The notes under the pieces are model-generated. The model had not been told where the DNA came from and made no database searches. It worked only from the letters and a program-made list of their open reading frames with translations. The translations under genes and the position numbers were made by a program. From the IMG/VR virus record IMGVR_UViG_3300010970_000083, positions 1 through 34,500 of that record: a stretch of 34,500 bases of DNA. The stretch is one strand, 5' to 3'. Positions 19,354 to 29,244 of the stretch are shown here, one piece after another. The stretch's first letter is position 1. The number at the start of each line of letters is the position of its first letter. This stretch comes from a virus.

Positions 19354-19366
19354 AACAACAAAACAA
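19354..19366 (+). repeat. AACAACAAAACAA leader, copy 1
   Basis: First of six exact copies (others 19664, 24361, 24561, 24804, 25009), each just before a small gene. Here ATG 19374 lies seven bases downstream. The leader has no G and no Shine-Dalgarno; a translation-enhancing role is inferred. Confidence 0.8.
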
Positions 19367-19373
19367 TATCAAA

Positions 19374-19622
19374 ATGAAAACTTTACAAAACACAAAAACT
19401 CACAAAATGAAAACAACTGAAATTGTTTTCTCAAATATGACTTTTATAGTTGAATTATCATGTCATTATATGGCTGCTTTAAATAATCCCGGATGGTCAA
19501 CAATAAAATACAGAGCAAGTATAAAAGAAACAGGTAAAGGTATTGGTGGATTTGGAGGAAAAAATCTTATAACAAGACAAATGGAATTAATTAATTCAAG
19601 ACCTGATTTATTTTTAAGCTAA
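19374..19622 (+). CDS. Small early protein, unknown
   Basis: An 82-residue protein. The second methionine codon (19407) is an alternative start that would remove a Lys/Thr-rich N-terminus. The body has a beta-like EIVFSNMTFIVELSCHYM stretch and a Gly-rich TGKGIGGFGGKNLITRQ segment, then QMELINSRPDLFL. No family is recognised. It is the first gene after an early promoter and the first AACAACAAAACAA leader, so it is likely made early and abundantly, as phage host-takeover proteins often are. Confidence 0.65.
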   Translation: MKTLQNTKTHKMKTTEIVFSNMTFIVELSCHYMAALNNPGWSTIKYRASIKETGKGIGGFGGKNLITRQMELINSRPDLFLS

Positions 19623-19663: not shown

Positions 19664-19676
19664 AACAACAAAACAA
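19664..19676 (+). repeat. AACAACAAAACAA leader, copy 2
   Basis: An exact copy of the leader, seven bases before ATG 19684. It argues that the 41-residue gene at 19684 is real and that the longer out-of-phase frame through here is not. Confidence 0.8.
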
Positions 19677-19683
19677 TACTATT

Positions 19684-19809
19684 ATGAAAAATTTCCTAAA
19701 AGAATTAAAAGAAGGACATCAGGCAGACCCTACGTTTATTTGGCTTGCAGTACCTACATTCATCTTGTTGGTAGCTATTTATGTAATTTCAATCAACTTA
19801 ACTGCATAG
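19684..19809 (+). CDS. Tiny membrane protein (41 aa)
   Basis: Starts MKNFLKELKEGHQADPTF, then one hydrophobic helix (about residues 19-37, IWLAVPTFILLVAIYVISI), ending NLTA and TAG. It is supported by the leader seven bases upstream and by the close junction with the next gene (ATG 19812, two bases after the stop). A longer frame at 19650-20075 crosses it out of phase; its first 54 codons look like noise. It is possibly an inner-membrane host-takeover or superinfection-exclusion peptide, but the function is unknown. Confidence 0.7.
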   Translation: MKNFLKELKEGHQADPTFIWLAVPTFILLVAIYVISINLTA

Positions 19810-20270: not shown

Positions 20271-20846
20271 ATGGCACAACAAAACACATTAGCATCTATT
20301 CAGGCCAAGGTCAAAGCACCCAAAGGTCAATTCAATTCTTTCGGCAAGTACAAGTACCGTTCGGCAGAAGACATTCTTGAATCAGTTAAATTAGTCATCA
20401 ATCCGCTAGGCTTTTCAATTGTCCTATCAGACACGATAATTAATGTAGGTGATAGATTCTACATTAAAGCTACTGCAACGCTAACAGATGGCAAGGAAAC
20501 GTACTCAGCAGATGGTTATGCTCGTGAGGACGAAAGCAAAAAAGGTATGGATGGTTCGCAGGTCACTGGGACGTCATCAAGTTATGCTCGGAAGTATGCG
20601 CTTAACGGACTTTTTGCTTTGGATGATACAAAAGACGCAGACGCTACAAATACTTATGTTAAGGATTCTCAACCAAAACAAGAATCAGCAACAGAGCCAT
20701 CGGTTTTATCAGCTTGGCAAGTAGCAGTAAAGAAATGTAACACCGGTGCTGAATTAATGGCTTTGTATAGTTCAAACAAGGAATTAATTGATTCAGATAT
20801 CAATATCAAGTCATTATTTACAACTCGTAAATTAGAAATCGACTAA
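20271..20846 (+). CDS. erf: ERF-family single-strand annealing recombinase
   Basis: A 191-residue protein of the ERF superfamily, which anneals complementary single strands during phage recombination and genome circularisation. The core shows GKYKYRSAEDILESVKLV near the N-terminus, a central YIKATATLTDG strand, and the signature SQVTGTSSSYARKYALNGLFALDDTKDADA at about residues 97-126. The C-terminal part (about 150-191) is a separate helical tail. The exonuclease gene starts on its last base, as with lambda bet-exo type pairs. Confidence 0.9.
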   Translation: MAQQNTLASIQAKVKAPKGQFNSFGKYKYRSAEDILESVKLVINPLGFSIVLSDTIINVGDRFYIKATATLTDGKETYSADGYAREDESKKGMDGSQVTGTSSSYARKYALNGLFALDDTKDADATNTYVKDSQPKQESATEPSVLSAWQVAVKKCNTGAELMALYSSNKELIDSDINIKSLFTTRKLEID

Positions 20847-21550
20847 TGGAAAGCACTTGGATGGATTCTCGTAAAGGAAAATTTACAGCATCGGCAATGC
20901 ACAAATTATTTACTCAGCCAAAATCGGTGAAAGACCGTGAGGCTGGGTATTTATCTGAAACTGCTAAAAGTTACATTGAAGAAGTAGCAATTGAGGAGTT
21001 AACGGGCTATCGTAAAGACTTTGGTACATCAGCAACCGAACACGGAAACAAATACGAAGAAGAAGCATTTGAGGTGTTTAAATTGGCAACCGGTTTAAAC
21101 TTCGATTTTACTTCAAAAACGTTTTATCCTTTTGGTGGCAATAGTGGAGCATCACCGGATGGTGTTCTTTATGAAGACCTAAATATTACGGCTGTGGTAG
21201 ATATTAAATGCCCGTATTCACCGTTATCATTCTACGAGCAAAAAGAAATGTTAATGAATTGTGCAGGTAATAAAACACAAGGAGTGCCACCTGCATATTT
21301 CTACCAACTGCAAACACAAATGATGGCTACCGGTGCAAAGATTTCATATTTGGCTCGTTACTTAGCAAATGAAATAGAAGACACTAAAACCGGTGTTATA
21401 TTGCGTTTTGACTTACCTGTTTCAGCACGATTATATTGGGCAGAAGTTACAGCAGATGAAGACGTACAGGACGAGATTCTAATGAAGCTACGTCAGGCAG
21501 AAATTTACAAACAACAGATTATTCAAAATTTTTTAAAACAAATCAACTAA
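20846..21550 (+). CDS. YqaJ-type (lambda exo-like) recombination exonuclease
   Basis: A 234-residue nuclease of the PD-(D/E)XK superfamily that would resect double-stranded ends for the ERF partner. Motifs seen: SRKGKFTASAMHKLF (N-terminal R-x-G-x-x-TAS motif of YqaJ), EHGNKYEEEAF, GASPDGVLYED with the catalytic Asp, VDIKCPYS with the (D/E)xK pair, and the later YFYQLQTQMMATG segment with the conserved Gln. It starts on the last base of erf, so translation is coupled. Confidence 0.9.
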   Translation: MESTWMDSRKGKFTASAMHKLFTQPKSVKDREAGYLSETAKSYIEEVAIEELTGYRKDFGTSATEHGNKYEEEAFEVFKLATGLNFDFTSKTFYPFGGNSGASPDGVLYEDLNITAVVDIKCPYSPLSFYEQKEMLMNCAGNKTQGVPPAYFYQLQTQMMATGAKISYLARYLANEIEDTKTGVILRFDLPVSARLYWAEVTADEDVQDEILMKLRQAEIYKQQIIQNFLKQIN

Positions 21551-22740: not shown

Positions 22741-22855
22741 AGAAATTTGTTTAACAAAATGAGCGATAGGATGTAGGAGTCGTATGGTTCATTTTTTTCC
22801 TTGGTTTCCTTAAACCAATCCCCGATTGTTCTCCTACGCAGTCGGGGTTTTTTTA
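22741..22855 (+). ncRNA. Structured leader / possible attenuator before the initiator gene
   Basis: Two hairpins stand side by side: TTGGTTT (22801-22807) with AAACCAA (22812-22818), then CCCCGATTG (22820-22828) with CAGTCGGGG (22839-22847), the latter followed by TTTTTTT, a good terminator. The terminator loop holds CTCCTAC (22831-22837), which is complementary to GTAGGAG at 22773-22779 upstream. The RNA could switch between shapes and control read-through into 22860, or be a small RNA ending here. Confidence 0.5.
22820..22854 (+). terminator. Terminator just before the initiator gene
   Basis: The nine-pair stem CCCCGATTG/CAGTCGGGG (one G-T pair) is followed by seven T. It ends six bases before ATG 22860. 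See the overlapping leader entry. Confidence 0.8.
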
Positions 22856-22859
22856 TTCT

Positions 22860-23600
22860 ATGGCAAAAATTACAATTAAAAATAGGTACGCAACAGTGCC
22901 TAATGATTTGCTTAATTCAGATAAAATTTCACTAAAAGCAAAAGGATTGTATGCGTTTATTCAATCAAAACCTGATACATGGGATTTTAGTGTTGACCGT
23001 ATCTCAAAACAAATCTTTGAAGGCACAACCGTAGTTGCATCAGCTTTACGAGAATTAGAATCGTTTGGATATTTGCGCAGAAAAAGGTTTCAGAATGCTT
23101 CCGGATTTTGGTTAGTTGAGTACGAACTAAACGAGTTTGGCAATCCTGACGTAGAAAATCCTAGACAGGAAAACCTAGTATCAGGAAATCCTAGTCAGGA
23201 AAATCCTGTATCAGGAAAACCTGCTAATATTAGTAAACAAGATTATAGTAAAAAAGATATTAATAAAACAATTATAGTAAAAAGTAATAGGGATTTGCTT
23301 TTTGAAAAATGGTTGGCTTATAAGAAAGAGAAAAAACAAACTTATACGCAAACCGGCATTAAGTCATTATATGAAAAATGGGCTAAATTCACAGACGAGG
23401 AATTAGCACTAATAATTGAACAATCAATATCTAATAATTGGGCAGGATTATTTGAATTGAAAAATAACGTTAAAAATTCAGCACCGATGAAAGGCAAGAT
23501 TCAATCGGCTTATGAAAACATTAGTATTGCAGGCAACAACATTATAAAACAAATTGAAGATGGTACCTACGTTAATCCATTCGCCACAGGCAACAAGTAA
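22860..23600 (+). CDS. HTH replication-initiator-like protein with internal iterons
   Basis: A 246-residue protein. The N-terminal 90 residues are a winged helix-turn-helix of the HTH_36/replisome-organiser type: VPNDLLNSDKISLKAKGLYA, then WDFSVDRISKQIFEG and ASALRELESFGYLRRKR. A linker follows that repeats a five-residue unit (NPDVE NPRQE NLVSG NPSQE), because the DNA below it is a tandem 15-bp repeat. The C-terminal part (about 140-246) is helical and may bind a helicase loader or helicase. This resembles the lambda O plan: DNA-binding domain, origin inside the gene, partner-binding domain. It overlaps the next gene by 41 bases. Confidence 0.78.
   Translation: MAKITIKNRYATVPNDLLNSDKISLKAKGLYAFIQSKPDTWDFSVDRISKQIFEGTTVVASALRELESFGYLRRKRFQNASGFWLVEYELNEFGNPDVENPRQENLVSGNPSQENPVSGKPANISKQDYSKKDINKTIIVKSNRDLLFEKWLAYKKEKKQTYTQTGIKSLYEKWAKFTDEELALIIEQSISNNWAGLFELKNNVKNSAPMKGKIQSAYENISIAGNNIIKQIEDGTYVNPFATGNK
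23142..23223 (+). repeat. Five tandem 15-bp iterons (candidate replication origin)
   Basis: Units start at 23142 (degenerate), 23157, 23172, 23187 and 23202, with a partial sixth at 23217. Examples are AATCCTAGACAGGAA and AATCCTAGTCAGGAA; alternate units are AACCTAGTATCAGGA and AATCCTGTATCAGGA. Most contain the dyad TCCT…AGGA. The period-30 similarity (units 1 and 3, 2 and 4) is the strongest. An A+T-rich stretch (23224-23295) follows, as in lambda. Confidence 0.75.
23224..23295 (+). other. A+T-rich stretch beside iterons, possible unwinding element
   Basis: About 72 bases with very few G or C, directly after the iterons and inside the coding sequence. TTATAGTAAAAA occurs twice (23243 and 23272). 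Position and composition fit a DNA unwinding element of an origin; this is inference. Confidence 0.5.
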
Positions 23601-24360: not shown

Positions 24361-24373
24361 AACAACAAAACAA
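24361..24373 (+). repeat. AACAACAAAACAA leader, copy 3
   Basis: An exact copy, followed by CAAAAAA-type bases and ATG 24381. Confidence 0.8.
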
Positions 24374-24380
24374 CAAAAAA

Positions 24381-24554
24381 ATGGAAAATTTTGCAGTAGG
24401 ATACGCTAAAAGTTACACAACAGAATACACTTACATTAGTTTTAATTCATTTAAAGAAGCTAAAAATTATGTAGCTACTATGTATTCTAACAAAAAAATA
24501 TTTAATGTTCAAACAGACGGCAAAACAACATTTTTAATTACTCCTAATTTTTAA
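24381..24554 (+). CDS. Small early protein (57 aa), unknown
   Basis: Starts MENFAVGYAKSYTTEYTYIS and ends TTFLITPNF before TAA 24552-24554. It is aromatic and Thr-rich, with a helix SFKEAKNYVATMYS in the middle. It is supported by early promoter copy 2 and the leader just upstream, and by the next leader starting seven bases after its stop. The shape 'strand, helix (aligned with a feature along the chain), strand' is reminiscent of small single-domain phage proteins, but no family is known. Confidence 0.65.
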   Translation: MENFAVGYAKSYTTEYTYISFNSFKEAKNYVATMYSNKKIFNVQTDGKTTFLITPNF

Positions 24555-24560
24555 CAATTA

Positions 24561-24573
24561 AACAACAAAACAA
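24561..24573 (+). repeat. AACAACAAAACAA leader, copy 4
   Basis: The last A of the leader is the A of ATG 24573, so leader and start are fused as AACAACAAAACAATG. Confidence 0.8.
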
Positions 24574-24788
24574 TGGAAACTATCGGATATTTTGAGGAAT
24601 ACATTATTAATGGCAAATTCATCGGTTGTAAAGTATGCCAAGAGCAAGACCGTGAAATTGGTTACTACGGCAAAAAAGTAATGGTAGCAGAAGAAACTAT
24701 TATTTTAGAAGGCAACAAGAAAATCAAGAAAGGTCAAGAATACTACACTCGTTACTATCCAATGAACGGTAGAATCACAAAAAACTAA
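24573..24788 (+). CDS. Small early protein (71 aa), unknown
   Basis: A 71-residue protein (METIGYFEEYIINGKFIGCK) with one Cys-x-x-Cys (CKVC), Lys-rich, with YYTRYYPMNGRITKN at the end. A beta-hairpin-rich small fold is likely. It shares the leader AACAACAAAACAATGGA with the next two genes. No family is recognised; an early host-takeover role is only a guess from its promoter context. Confidence 0.65.
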   Translation: METIGYFEEYIINGKFIGCKVCQEQDREIGYYGKKVMVAEETIILEGNKKIKKGQEYYTRYYPMNGRITKN

Positions 24789-24803
24789 TTATCAATTTAA
24801 CCT

Positions 24804-24816
24804 AACAACAAAACAA
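24804..24816 (+). repeat. AACAACAAAACAA leader, copy 5
   Basis: Fused to ATG 24816. The 28 bases 24797-24824, which include the start, are identical to 25002-25029. Confidence 0.85.
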
Positions 24817-24998
24817 TGGAAAATTTACAAATTGAAAATGTTCGCAAATTTGCAATAGAAGCTATCAATTCACATCCTCAACACAAGCAAGAAATTAAAC
24901 AATTATGGGTATTTATGTTAGATGAAATTGAAAACGGTGAATCAATTTCTAACGAATGTAATTTATGTATTCAATCAATTAGCGATTTATTAATTTAA
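24816..24998 (+). CDS. Small early protein (60 aa), unknown
   Basis: A 60-residue helical protein (MENLQIENVRKFAIEAINSH), acidic in the second half (FMLDEIENGESISNE), ending ISDLLI. Its start region is part of a 28-bp exact repeat shared with the next gene, although the proteins then differ. It has an even mix of charged residues and no motif. Function unknown. Confidence 0.62.
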   Translation: MENLQIENVRKFAIEAINSHPQHKQEIKQLWVFMLDEIENGESISNECNLCIQSISDLLI

Positions 24999-25008
24999 TA
25001 ATTAACCT

Positions 25009-25021
25009 AACAACAAAACAA
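25009..25021 (+). repeat. AACAACAAAACAA leader, copy 6
   Basis: Fused to ATG 25021, within the second copy of the 28-bp repeat (25002-25029). Confidence 0.85.
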
Positions 25022-25320
25022 TGGAAAATCACTTAAAAATTTACGGATTTACAGACAATTCAATTGCATCATTAGATGCACAAAGTCTATCAAATGTTTT
25101 TGCTGCCTATGCTGAAAACTGTGCAGGTGACGAAATTATGGAAATCGGTTTTAACAAAAATTCAGGATACGTTTACATTGCATTAGAAAACGGCATACAG
25201 ATTGCTTCTTGCTTTGGTCATAGCGTTGTATTTGTTACAACAGATTTTAATGATGGCGAAGAATATTTTTCAGGCACATACGATGGAGCGTTAGACAACT
25301 TAGCAAAGCTGTCGCATTAG
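25021..25320 (+). CDS. Small early protein (99 aa), unknown
   Basis: A 99-residue acidic protein (MENHLKIYGFTDNSIASLDA). Helix SLSNVFAAYAENCAG, then strands MEIGFNKNSGYVYIALENGIQIAS and VVFVTTDFNDGEEYF, then a short helix. This alpha-beta pattern with many Asp/Glu is typical of small phage proteins that bind host enzymes, but no family is recognised. It ends with TAG, showing that TAG is used as a normal stop in this genome. Confidence 0.65.
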   Translation: MENHLKIYGFTDNSIASLDAQSLSNVFAAYAENCAGDEIMEIGFNKNSGYVYIALENGIQIASCFGHSVVFVTTDFNDGEEYFSGTYDGALDNLAKLSH

Positions 25321-27834: not shown

Positions 27835-27941
27835 AAACTGACGAAAGATTAATTTATGAAGCTATTTTTATCGGACTGGTAGAAGTAGCTTTTATCATTT
27901 ATATGACCGTTAAAATTTTAAAGCAAAAAAATAACCAATGA
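27831..27941 (+). CDS. Tiny membrane protein (36 aa)
   Basis: Starts MKTDERLIYEAIFIGLVEVA, with one hydrophobic helix at about residues 8-26 and a basic end (KILKQKNNQ). ATGA overlaps with both neighbours place it in a coupled operon. Function unknown. Confidence 0.55.
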   Translation: MKTDERLIYEAIFIGLVEVAFIIYMTVKILKQKNNQ

Positions 27942-28510
27942 ATGCAGAATTAATAAAGATTGGCGATATAAAGTCAAATCCAAATAATCCGAGAATTATC
28001 AAGGATGACAAATTTCAGAAGTTAGTAAAGTCAATCAAAGACTTCCCTAAAATGCTTGAACTGCGTCCTATTGTTGTGAACGATGATATGGTTGTTCTTG
28101 GTGGTAATATGCGATTGAAGGCTTGCAAAGAAGCAGGATTAAAAGAAGTGCCTGTAATTAAAGCATCTGAATTAACTGATGACGAGCAGAAGCAATTTAT
28201 TATCAAGGACAATGTTGGATTTGGAGAGTGGGATTGGGATATGTTAGCAAACGAGTGGGAAGCAGATGAATTGGTTGATTGGGGTTTAGACTTATGGCAT
28301 AAAGGTTTAGAAGTAAACGAAATGGATGAAAGTCAAATTGATTTAGACCAAGAATTTGACCCAATTGGTTTATCATCCGGATTGCAACGTGTTGTGTTTA
28401 TTTTCGATGGTTCAGAAGAAGCTGAAAGTTGGTTAGGACAACACCCTGAGTTACCACTTAAAAAAATGAATAATGCATGGCAAATCGACCTATCTACCCA
28501 ATCTATATAA
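27938..28510 (+). CDS. ParB-like nuclease-fold protein (DNA-modification type)
   Basis: A 190-residue protein. The N-terminal domain has the ParB/sulfiredoxin-fold motifs NPNNPRIIKDDKF, then LRPIVVND and VVLGGNMRLKACKEAG at about residues 14-66. A second part (EWDWDMLANEWEADELVDWG) is typical of phage and mobile-element ParB-like proteins that sit next to DNA methylases. The C-terminal RVVFIFDGSEEAESWL resembles the tail of that group. Here the neighbour is a glycosyltransferase, not a methylase, and the two genes overlap by 34 bases. It is probably not a partition protein. Confidence 0.82.
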   Translation: MNAELIKIGDIKSNPNNPRIIKDDKFQKLVKSIKDFPKMLELRPIVVNDDMVVLGGNMRLKACKEAGLKEVPVIKASELTDDEQKQFIIKDNVGFGEWDWDMLANEWEADELVDWGLDLWHKGLEVNEMDESQIDLDQEFDPIGLSSGLQRVVFIFDGSEEAESWLGQHPELPLKKMNNAWQIDLSTQSI

Positions 28511-29244
28511 TTTCAAAAGGCAGATACGAGAAAACTTTGTCTGCTGATATTTTTGAGAAAGCTGGATTGAATTACTATGTAGCTGTCGAACCACAGGAAT
28601 ATGACTTGTATGTTAAAAAACTTGGGGAAAAAAGAATATTAAAATTGCCATTTTCAAATTTAGGTTTAGGTAGCTATCCGGCTCGTAATTACTGCTGGGA
28701 ACATGCAAAAAATTTAGGTCATAAATATCATTGGCTGTTTGATGATAACATTCAATATTTTTCAAAGTGGATTAACGGCAAGCGAAAAAGAATTGACACA
28801 ATAGGTGAAGCATTAATGTATGTTGAGCATTTTGTGATTAAAAATAAAGTTACAATTGGAGGTTTTGAGGAACCAAATTTTGTAGTTAAGCCACCAAAGA
28901 AAGCATTTAAAATTAATTGCCACGTTTACTCGGCAATGCTAATTAAAAACGATATTCCATTTAGATGGCGATTAAAATATAATGAAGACGTTGATTTATG
29001 TTTATAGGTACTGCACAACGGTGGTAGCACAGCAAGTTGTATATATTATATGGCTGATAAAGTAAGTACGGCAGCAAAGATGAAAGGTGGAAATCAAACT
29101 GAACTTTATAAAGGAAACGCACCTGAAAAGAATCTTTTAAAAGCAAAAATGCTTGAAGCTGTTTGGCCACAATATGCAAAAACAGTAATTAGATTTAACA
29201 GGCATCATCATTTAGTAGATTGGAAAGTGTTTAAAAGGAAATAA
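28477..29244 (+). pseudogene. TET-associated-type glycosyltransferase, in-frame amber at 29005
   Basis: One reading frame of 255 codons with a single TAG at 29005-29007. The first part (176 residues) has PIYPIYIISKGRYEKTLSAD, then LPFSNLGLGSYPARNYCWEH and HWLFDDNIQYF with D89-D90-N91 as a likely metal/sugar-nucleotide site, and GGFEEPNF. It stops after NEDVDLCL. The frame continues VLHNGG…, then ADKVSTAAKMKGGNQTELY and VIRFNRHHHLVDWKVFK, as TAGT-type glycosyltransferases (which glycosylate modified phage DNA bases) do. The residue at the stop is commonly Gln, so CAG to TAG would explain it. A second start at ATG 29050 could give only the tail. Other genes in this phage stop at TAG, so general recoding is unlikely. 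Confidence 0.8.

Follow-up and report, generated by a model that had tools for sequence, protein, structure and literature searches.

A candidate iteron replication origin embedded in the initiator gene of a tailed phage

Few phages known from metagenomes have a mapped replication origin. In a 34.5-kb virus record with tailed-phage genes, analyzed here at its full length (the window), a replication initiator gene contains tandem 15-bp units in the part that encodes the protein's linker. Does this repeat belong to the protein, or does it mark the site at which replication of the phage DNA begins? An initial annotation of the sequence had placed an origin inside this gene, on the plan of phage lambda, and had named a plain repeat in the protein linker as the alternative.

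Repeats and an A+T-rich segment in the initiator linker

The initiator gene (22860..23600, + strand) encodes 246 aa, which Pfam, PHROG and AlphaFold2 together resolve into a winged helix, a disordered linker and a swappable C-terminal domain. Codons 95-119, in the linker, read NPDVE NPRQE NLVSG NPSQE NPVSG and are followed by KP, so that the five-residue repeat described in the initial annotation is present, with a PF13730 domain upstream. At the DNA level, codons 95-121 form an array on the + strand (23142..23222) of five full 15-bp units (23142-23216) and a partial sixth (23217-23222), also as first described. Tandem Repeats Finder gave this array a score of 104, the top score within the window, with a period of 30 that reflects two alternating 15-mers. 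The dyad TCCT...AGGA, originally assigned to the units in general, is perfect in units 2, 4 and 5, with inner spacings of 4, 4 and 5; it is reduced to CCT...AGG in unit 3 and lost from unit 1, and we count the degeneracy of these two units against the origin reading.

The array is followed directly by an A+T-rich segment (23223..23295, + strand), which we propose as a DNA unwinding element. At 73 bp, it agrees with the earlier estimate of about 72 bases, and its A+T content is 82% compared to 67% for the whole initiator gene. Tandem Repeats Finder detected a second, A+T-rich array of 15-mers, TAGTAAAAAAGATTA, inside this segment at 23231-23283; the 15-bp repeat might be a single-strand loading motif. 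In distant relatives, we noticed that the A+T segment encodes I-S-K/N-K-D repeats, in which serine is nearly always AGT.

To ask what the protein sequence accounts for, we held the protein fixed and redrew its codons from the phage's own usage. Eight AGG/CCT dyads are observed compared to a mean of 0.92 after resampling (p = 5e-5), and the same procedure gave p = 0.003 for DNA self-match at lag 30 and p = 0.12 at lag 15. The poly-A tract (AGGAAA-A-TCCT) is a better-supported center for the dyad than the center of TCCT...AGGA alone. Pattern and repeat scans of the 34.5-kb window found no second iteron array. Cumulative GC skew, which had been suggested as a check over 23.1-23.3 kb, keeps climbing across the region and has no inflection at 23.2 kb; we count this against an origin, and we note that the measure is uninformative here because nearly all genes share one strand.

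Conservation of the DNA across related initiators

The nearest relative found, L001, has 86% amino-acid identity to the window's initiator. Between the two genes, synonymous changes amount to 0/22 in codons 95-122 compared to 69/184 elsewhere (Fisher 7e-5), and the gene-wide minimum of synonymous change falls at codons 95-150 (permutation p < 5e-5). Amino-acid change in codons 95-150 is as high as anywhere in the gene. Low synonymous change combined with undiminished amino-acid change therefore indicates constraint on the DNA rather than recent common ancestry of the segment.

We extended the comparison to 13 disjoint pairs of related initiators with 80-98% identity, including the window pair. 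Synonymous changes were found at 15/276 in the iterons and 11/222 in the A+T segment (the next 20 codons), compared to 552/2311 elsewhere, a four- to fivefold reduction in both segments (amino-acid-stratified z of -6.7 and -6.2, respectively), while amino-acid change in both was equal to or above that elsewhere. Among the 13 pairs, four (L033-L039, L042) are closely related to each other; with three of these removed, the contrast is unchanged (iterons 13/224 versus 450/1837 elsewhere). The counts directly support constraint on the DNA of both the iterons and the A+T segment, and by this measure it goes beyond what the protein imposes. The initial annotation had proposed comparing relatives at synonymous sites, where retention of the protein linker without the DNA dyads would speak against an origin; the relatives show the opposite, with linker amino acids that vary freely and DNA that is kept.

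Codon choice in a broader sample of 145 initiator genes in 81 clusters points in the same direction. Of 226 codons that immediately precede E-[NK]-P, 183 have G as their last base, compared to 70.9 expected from each locus's codon usage, and these G-ending codons span many different amino acids. As a control, codons before any E in neighboring genes end in G 720 times compared to 691.5 expected. At the third position of the proline codon, where any base is allowed, the base complements the one before GG in 102 of 185 E-type units (53.9 expected). In G-[NK]-P units this pairing gives no signal (20 compared to 19.9 expected), a result that we count against the origin reading.

Across 53 lineages (clusters), codon choice maintains a DNA dyad of the form N7-G-GAAAAN-C-C-N7 with a poly-A center. 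Complementarity is raised exactly on the antidiagonal centered on the A-tract, from -2:8 to -7:13, covering seven bases on each side, and compensatory changes occur in both arms, so that covariation of the dyad is directly supported. The Watson-Crick fraction at dyad positions is 0.439 compared to 0.279 after permutation (z 6.5), although the permutation breaks the relatedness between clusters (70% identity cut) and z may partly reflect shared ancestry; shared ancestry does not account for the restriction of the signal to the antidiagonal. The G-U fraction at the same positions is not raised (0.067 compared to 0.093 permuted). This covariation pattern, with a Watson-Crick excess but no G-U excess, is the signature that a symmetrical protein assembly on a DNA dyad would be expected to leave, and not that of an RNA hairpin.

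The layout also recurs. Other lineages contain near-perfect palindromes, such as AGATACGGAAAAGCCGTATCT in L094, and of 99 intervals between successive units, 71 measure 15 bp. In 36 of 57 genes, compared to 5.7 expected, the 60-bp stretch richest in A+T begins no more than 60 bp beyond the final unit. Covariation between winged-helix residues and the bases of the iteron arms gave a weak signal that is confounded by relatedness. A pattern search on eight aligned sequences was defeated by their diversity, and a scan of genome contigs returned one distant relative.

The winged helix, its neighborhood and comparable systems

The N-terminal domain (aa 1-96; 22860..23147, + strand) matches PF13730 (HTH_36) over residues 23-72 with 25.7 bits, compared to the curated cut-off of 25. 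This is the sole Pfam report at E values up to 0.1; PF06970 (RepA_N) has no match, and RepA_N membership by Pfam was rejected on this basis. PHROG matches are to replication initiation families, the best named one being phrog_428 (5e-15). A PHROG named 'replication initiation O-like' also matches, which is weaker than the Pfam criterion; with the lambda O Pfam domain absent from the Pfam matches, we rejected membership of the lambda O family by Pfam.

AlphaFold2 predicts the winged helix with moderate confidence (blocks of about 63-89 pLDDT in residues 1-90), and a disordered linker at residues 96-140 (pLDDT below 50). The C-terminal domain, which begins at about aa 143 (23286..23597, + strand), is predicted to be helical (helices 143-234). 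When the predicted winged helix was compared to known structures with VIA-align, initiator and primosome proteins ranked first: the DnaB N-terminal domain (Z 10.9), RepA_N 4pql (Z 9.1; rmsd 2.4, 80 aligned), RctB (8.6), RepA_N 4pt7 (8.4), DnaD (7.9), the RepA_N-DNA complex 5kbj (7.9), 4pta (7.8) and PLE RepA 4ro3 (7.4). As Z scores of 7-8 may be non-specific among winged helices, we take the ordering as evidence and not any single score. On the predicted model, the N-terminal domain appears to have a RepA_N-type winged-helix fold. Foldseek alone returned nothing below E 0.001 with the initiator model, and a sequence search of the PDB gave chance matches only.

The association of the repeats with this winged-helix family is directly supported. 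L024 and L026, phages with a terminase 82-83% identical to the window's, have exchanged the C-terminal domain for a different one, yet keep the winged helix and the iterons. L025 has another N-terminal domain with a C-terminal domain like that of L024 and L026, and no iteron repeats were found in its initiator. Retention in the former and absence in the latter therefore suggest that the iterons track the winged helix, a pattern that is suggestive and rests on one loss event.

The gene arrangement has counterparts in known systems. In the RepA_N plasmid pSK41, the boxes to which the RepA_N domain binds lie within rep, and the origin encodes a deletable linker (PMC5703833); RepA_N iterons are inverted repeats that converge on a poly-A tract (PMC7145576), and the C-terminal domains of these initiators are host-specific (PMC5703833, PMC7145576). 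The phage gene resembles RepA_N plasmids (pSK41, pTZ2162) in its N-terminal winged helix, the presumed binding domain, and in the repeats inside the initiator gene; its dyad corresponds to RepA_N iterons as described in PMC7145576, and its predicted fold matches 4pql, 4pt7, 4pta and 5kbj. It differs in having a PF13730 domain instead of PF06970, in its 15-bp units with overlapping dyads, and in belonging to a phage rather than a plasmid.

The nearest comparisons within the PF13730 type are Staphylococcus phage 80alpha gp20 and the pPR9 Rep, which share a PF13730-type domain, 15-bp linker repeats and adjacent A+T-rich repeats, and for which genetic data point to an origin within the gene or to autonomous replication. 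In pPR9, the segment comprising domain and origin is replaced by one with a PF13730 domain, and the mini-replicon replicates (PMC5703833); we found that its linker has E-N-P units at 15-bp spacing behind this domain, plus an A+T-rich array of 15-mers. In 80alpha, loss of ORF20 was not complemented in trans, from which the authors inferred an origin embedded in the gene (PMC5499656), and the sequence record annotates a putative origin over 15-bp GGAAAAACC units. What sets both apart from the window is their hosts, their C-terminal domains and the arms of their iterons, which in 80alpha are GGAAAAACCGTTAAC. Bacillus phage SPP1 carries oriL, with direct repeats and an A+T-rich unwinding element bound by the initiator, inside initiator gene 38 (PMC6316719). 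The likeness to our locus lies in this published layout of repeats and an A+T-rich element in the initiator gene; SPP1 has a second origin copy, oriR, whereas none is seen in the 34.5-kb window.

The lambda plan of the initial annotation holds insofar as gene O likewise contains iterons and an A+T-rich segment (ori-lambda) in mid-gene. Its initiator family is another matter, since the phage protein lacks a Pfam match to lambda O despite the 'O-like' PHROG. Lambda iterons, at about 18-19 bp, are longer than the 15-bp units found here. RepA_N plasmids, SPP1 oriL and 80alpha are nearer, and the best reading is a known kind of origin whose plan is closest to those of RepA_N plasmids and SPP1 oriL.

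Directly before the initiator ATG lies a structured leader RNA (22757..22853, + strand), which is part of the replication module and not the iteron origin itself. It forms three hairpins, of which loops 1 and 3 are complementary over seven bases (kissing loops) and the last is terminator-like and followed by a U-run; it may be an attenuator that regulates how much initiator is made. Across nine relatives, pairing is kept in 98% of cells, and two-sided changes are seen in 22 cells compared to 7.2 after shuffling. An Rfam search with the upstream leader gave nothing above threshold. Counterparts occur at L025:1468-1554, L027:3289-3375, L034:1406-1492, L040:1399-1488 and L002:2466-2551, and a covariance model of the leader has matches in 19 of 40 sources. 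Two of these, L002 and L025, have initiators with a different N-terminal domain, and in L025 the leader and the initiator are separated by another gene. We also observed a second leader type at the same position (L033:1400-1499, L043:1400-1499; similar in L035, L037, L041, L045, L048 and L050), with two complementary stretches, GATCTCAC/GTGAGATC or CTCCTTAC/GTAAGGAG, and a conserved tail, GGTGGATTT(A/T)TTTGGTGGC.

Upstream, the genes for an ERF annealing protein and a YqaJ exonuclease (20271..21550, + strand; PF04404 5.8e-37, PF09588 1e-14) are the recombination part of the same early region as the initiator. Elsewhere in the window, six similar 27-bp stretches (AACAACAAAACAA...ATG) lie directly 5′ of the start codons of small genes (19354-19380, 19664-19690, 24361-24387, 24553-24579, 24796-24822 and 25001-25027) and are probably a shared translation or transcription start signal. 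Adjacent genes encode a ParB_N-domain protein (27938-28510) and a TET-associated glycosyltransferase (TAGT; 28477-29007); the glycosyltransferase hints that the phage DNA carries modified bases. Near the start of the record, a 520-aa frame (63-1625) appears by eye to open with a ClpX-like zinc finger and ATPase N-terminal part and to run on as a capsid-like protein, which may reflect a gene fusion or a join made in assembly.

Alternative readings and the proposed origin

Among other explanations, the one that survives best takes the repeats as initiator binding sites that act as an operator, for autoregulation or for titration and copy control, instead of as an origin. All of the sequence evidence for a bound DNA dyad fits any binding function. 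However, the adjoining A+T segment is equally constrained (11/222) and consistently follows the array, 80alpha and pPR9 provide origin evidence for the same layout, and a position deep inside a gene is unusual for an operator. We regard this reading as unlikely.

The inverted repeats could also form RNA stem-loops and act as mRNA hairpins in translation pausing, stability or attenuation, and arm covariation alone cannot separate DNA from RNA. The G-U fraction reported above, 7-bp arms whose 15-bp spacing makes adjacent hairpins mutually exclusive, and a constraint that extends through the A+T segment all make hairpins very improbable. We give similarly little credence to another cis site in the initiator gene: partition, packaging and recombination sites may likewise be repeat arrays and a ParB_N-domain protein is encoded in the window, but the presence of the array follows the DNA-binding domain of the initiator itself rather than the remainder of the genome, and we know of no such site in this position. 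Least probable of all is the plain protein linker grown by in-frame duplication with the DNA repeat as a side effect, which fits in-frame units whose translation is a five-residue repeat rich in proline, and duplication that copies codons too, but is contradicted by synonymous sites constrained where amino acids vary, by G-ending codons of many amino acids before E-N-P, by covariation of both dyad arms across lineages, and by predicted disorder (pLDDT under 50).

We consider it highly probable, from synonymous constraint and dyad covariation, that 23142-23295 is the initiator-embedded iteron replication origin of this phage, much as first proposed. We hypothesize that the winged-helix domain binds the 15-bp iterons inside its own gene, each an inverted repeat centered on an A-tract, and that the bound initiator assembles a nucleoprotein complex. 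This complex would open the adjoining A+T-rich segment, and the C-terminal domain would recruit the helicase-loading machinery. As for the disordered linker, which this stretch of DNA encodes, it may be largely a by-product of the origin.

The new elements are the phage lineage and the evidence, at the level of codons, that a large initiator family has its origin in the linker; a limited literature search did not find a published general rule that the PF13730 linker is the origin. We think it reasonably likely that, in PF13730 phage initiators generally, from Bacteroidota to staphylococcal phages and in plasmids, the proline- or asparagine-rich linker is a translated origin, that the winged helix and origin form a mobile cassette with interchangeable C-terminal domains, and that origins can be read in unannotated genomes from codon choice alone. 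If true, the linker of a very common initiator family would pinpoint the origin with single-base precision, and an origin test that needs no laboratory would be available in synonymous codon choice. It would also explain, at the level of DNA, a linker repeat that would otherwise pass for protein filler and would define a movable initiator-origin cassette.
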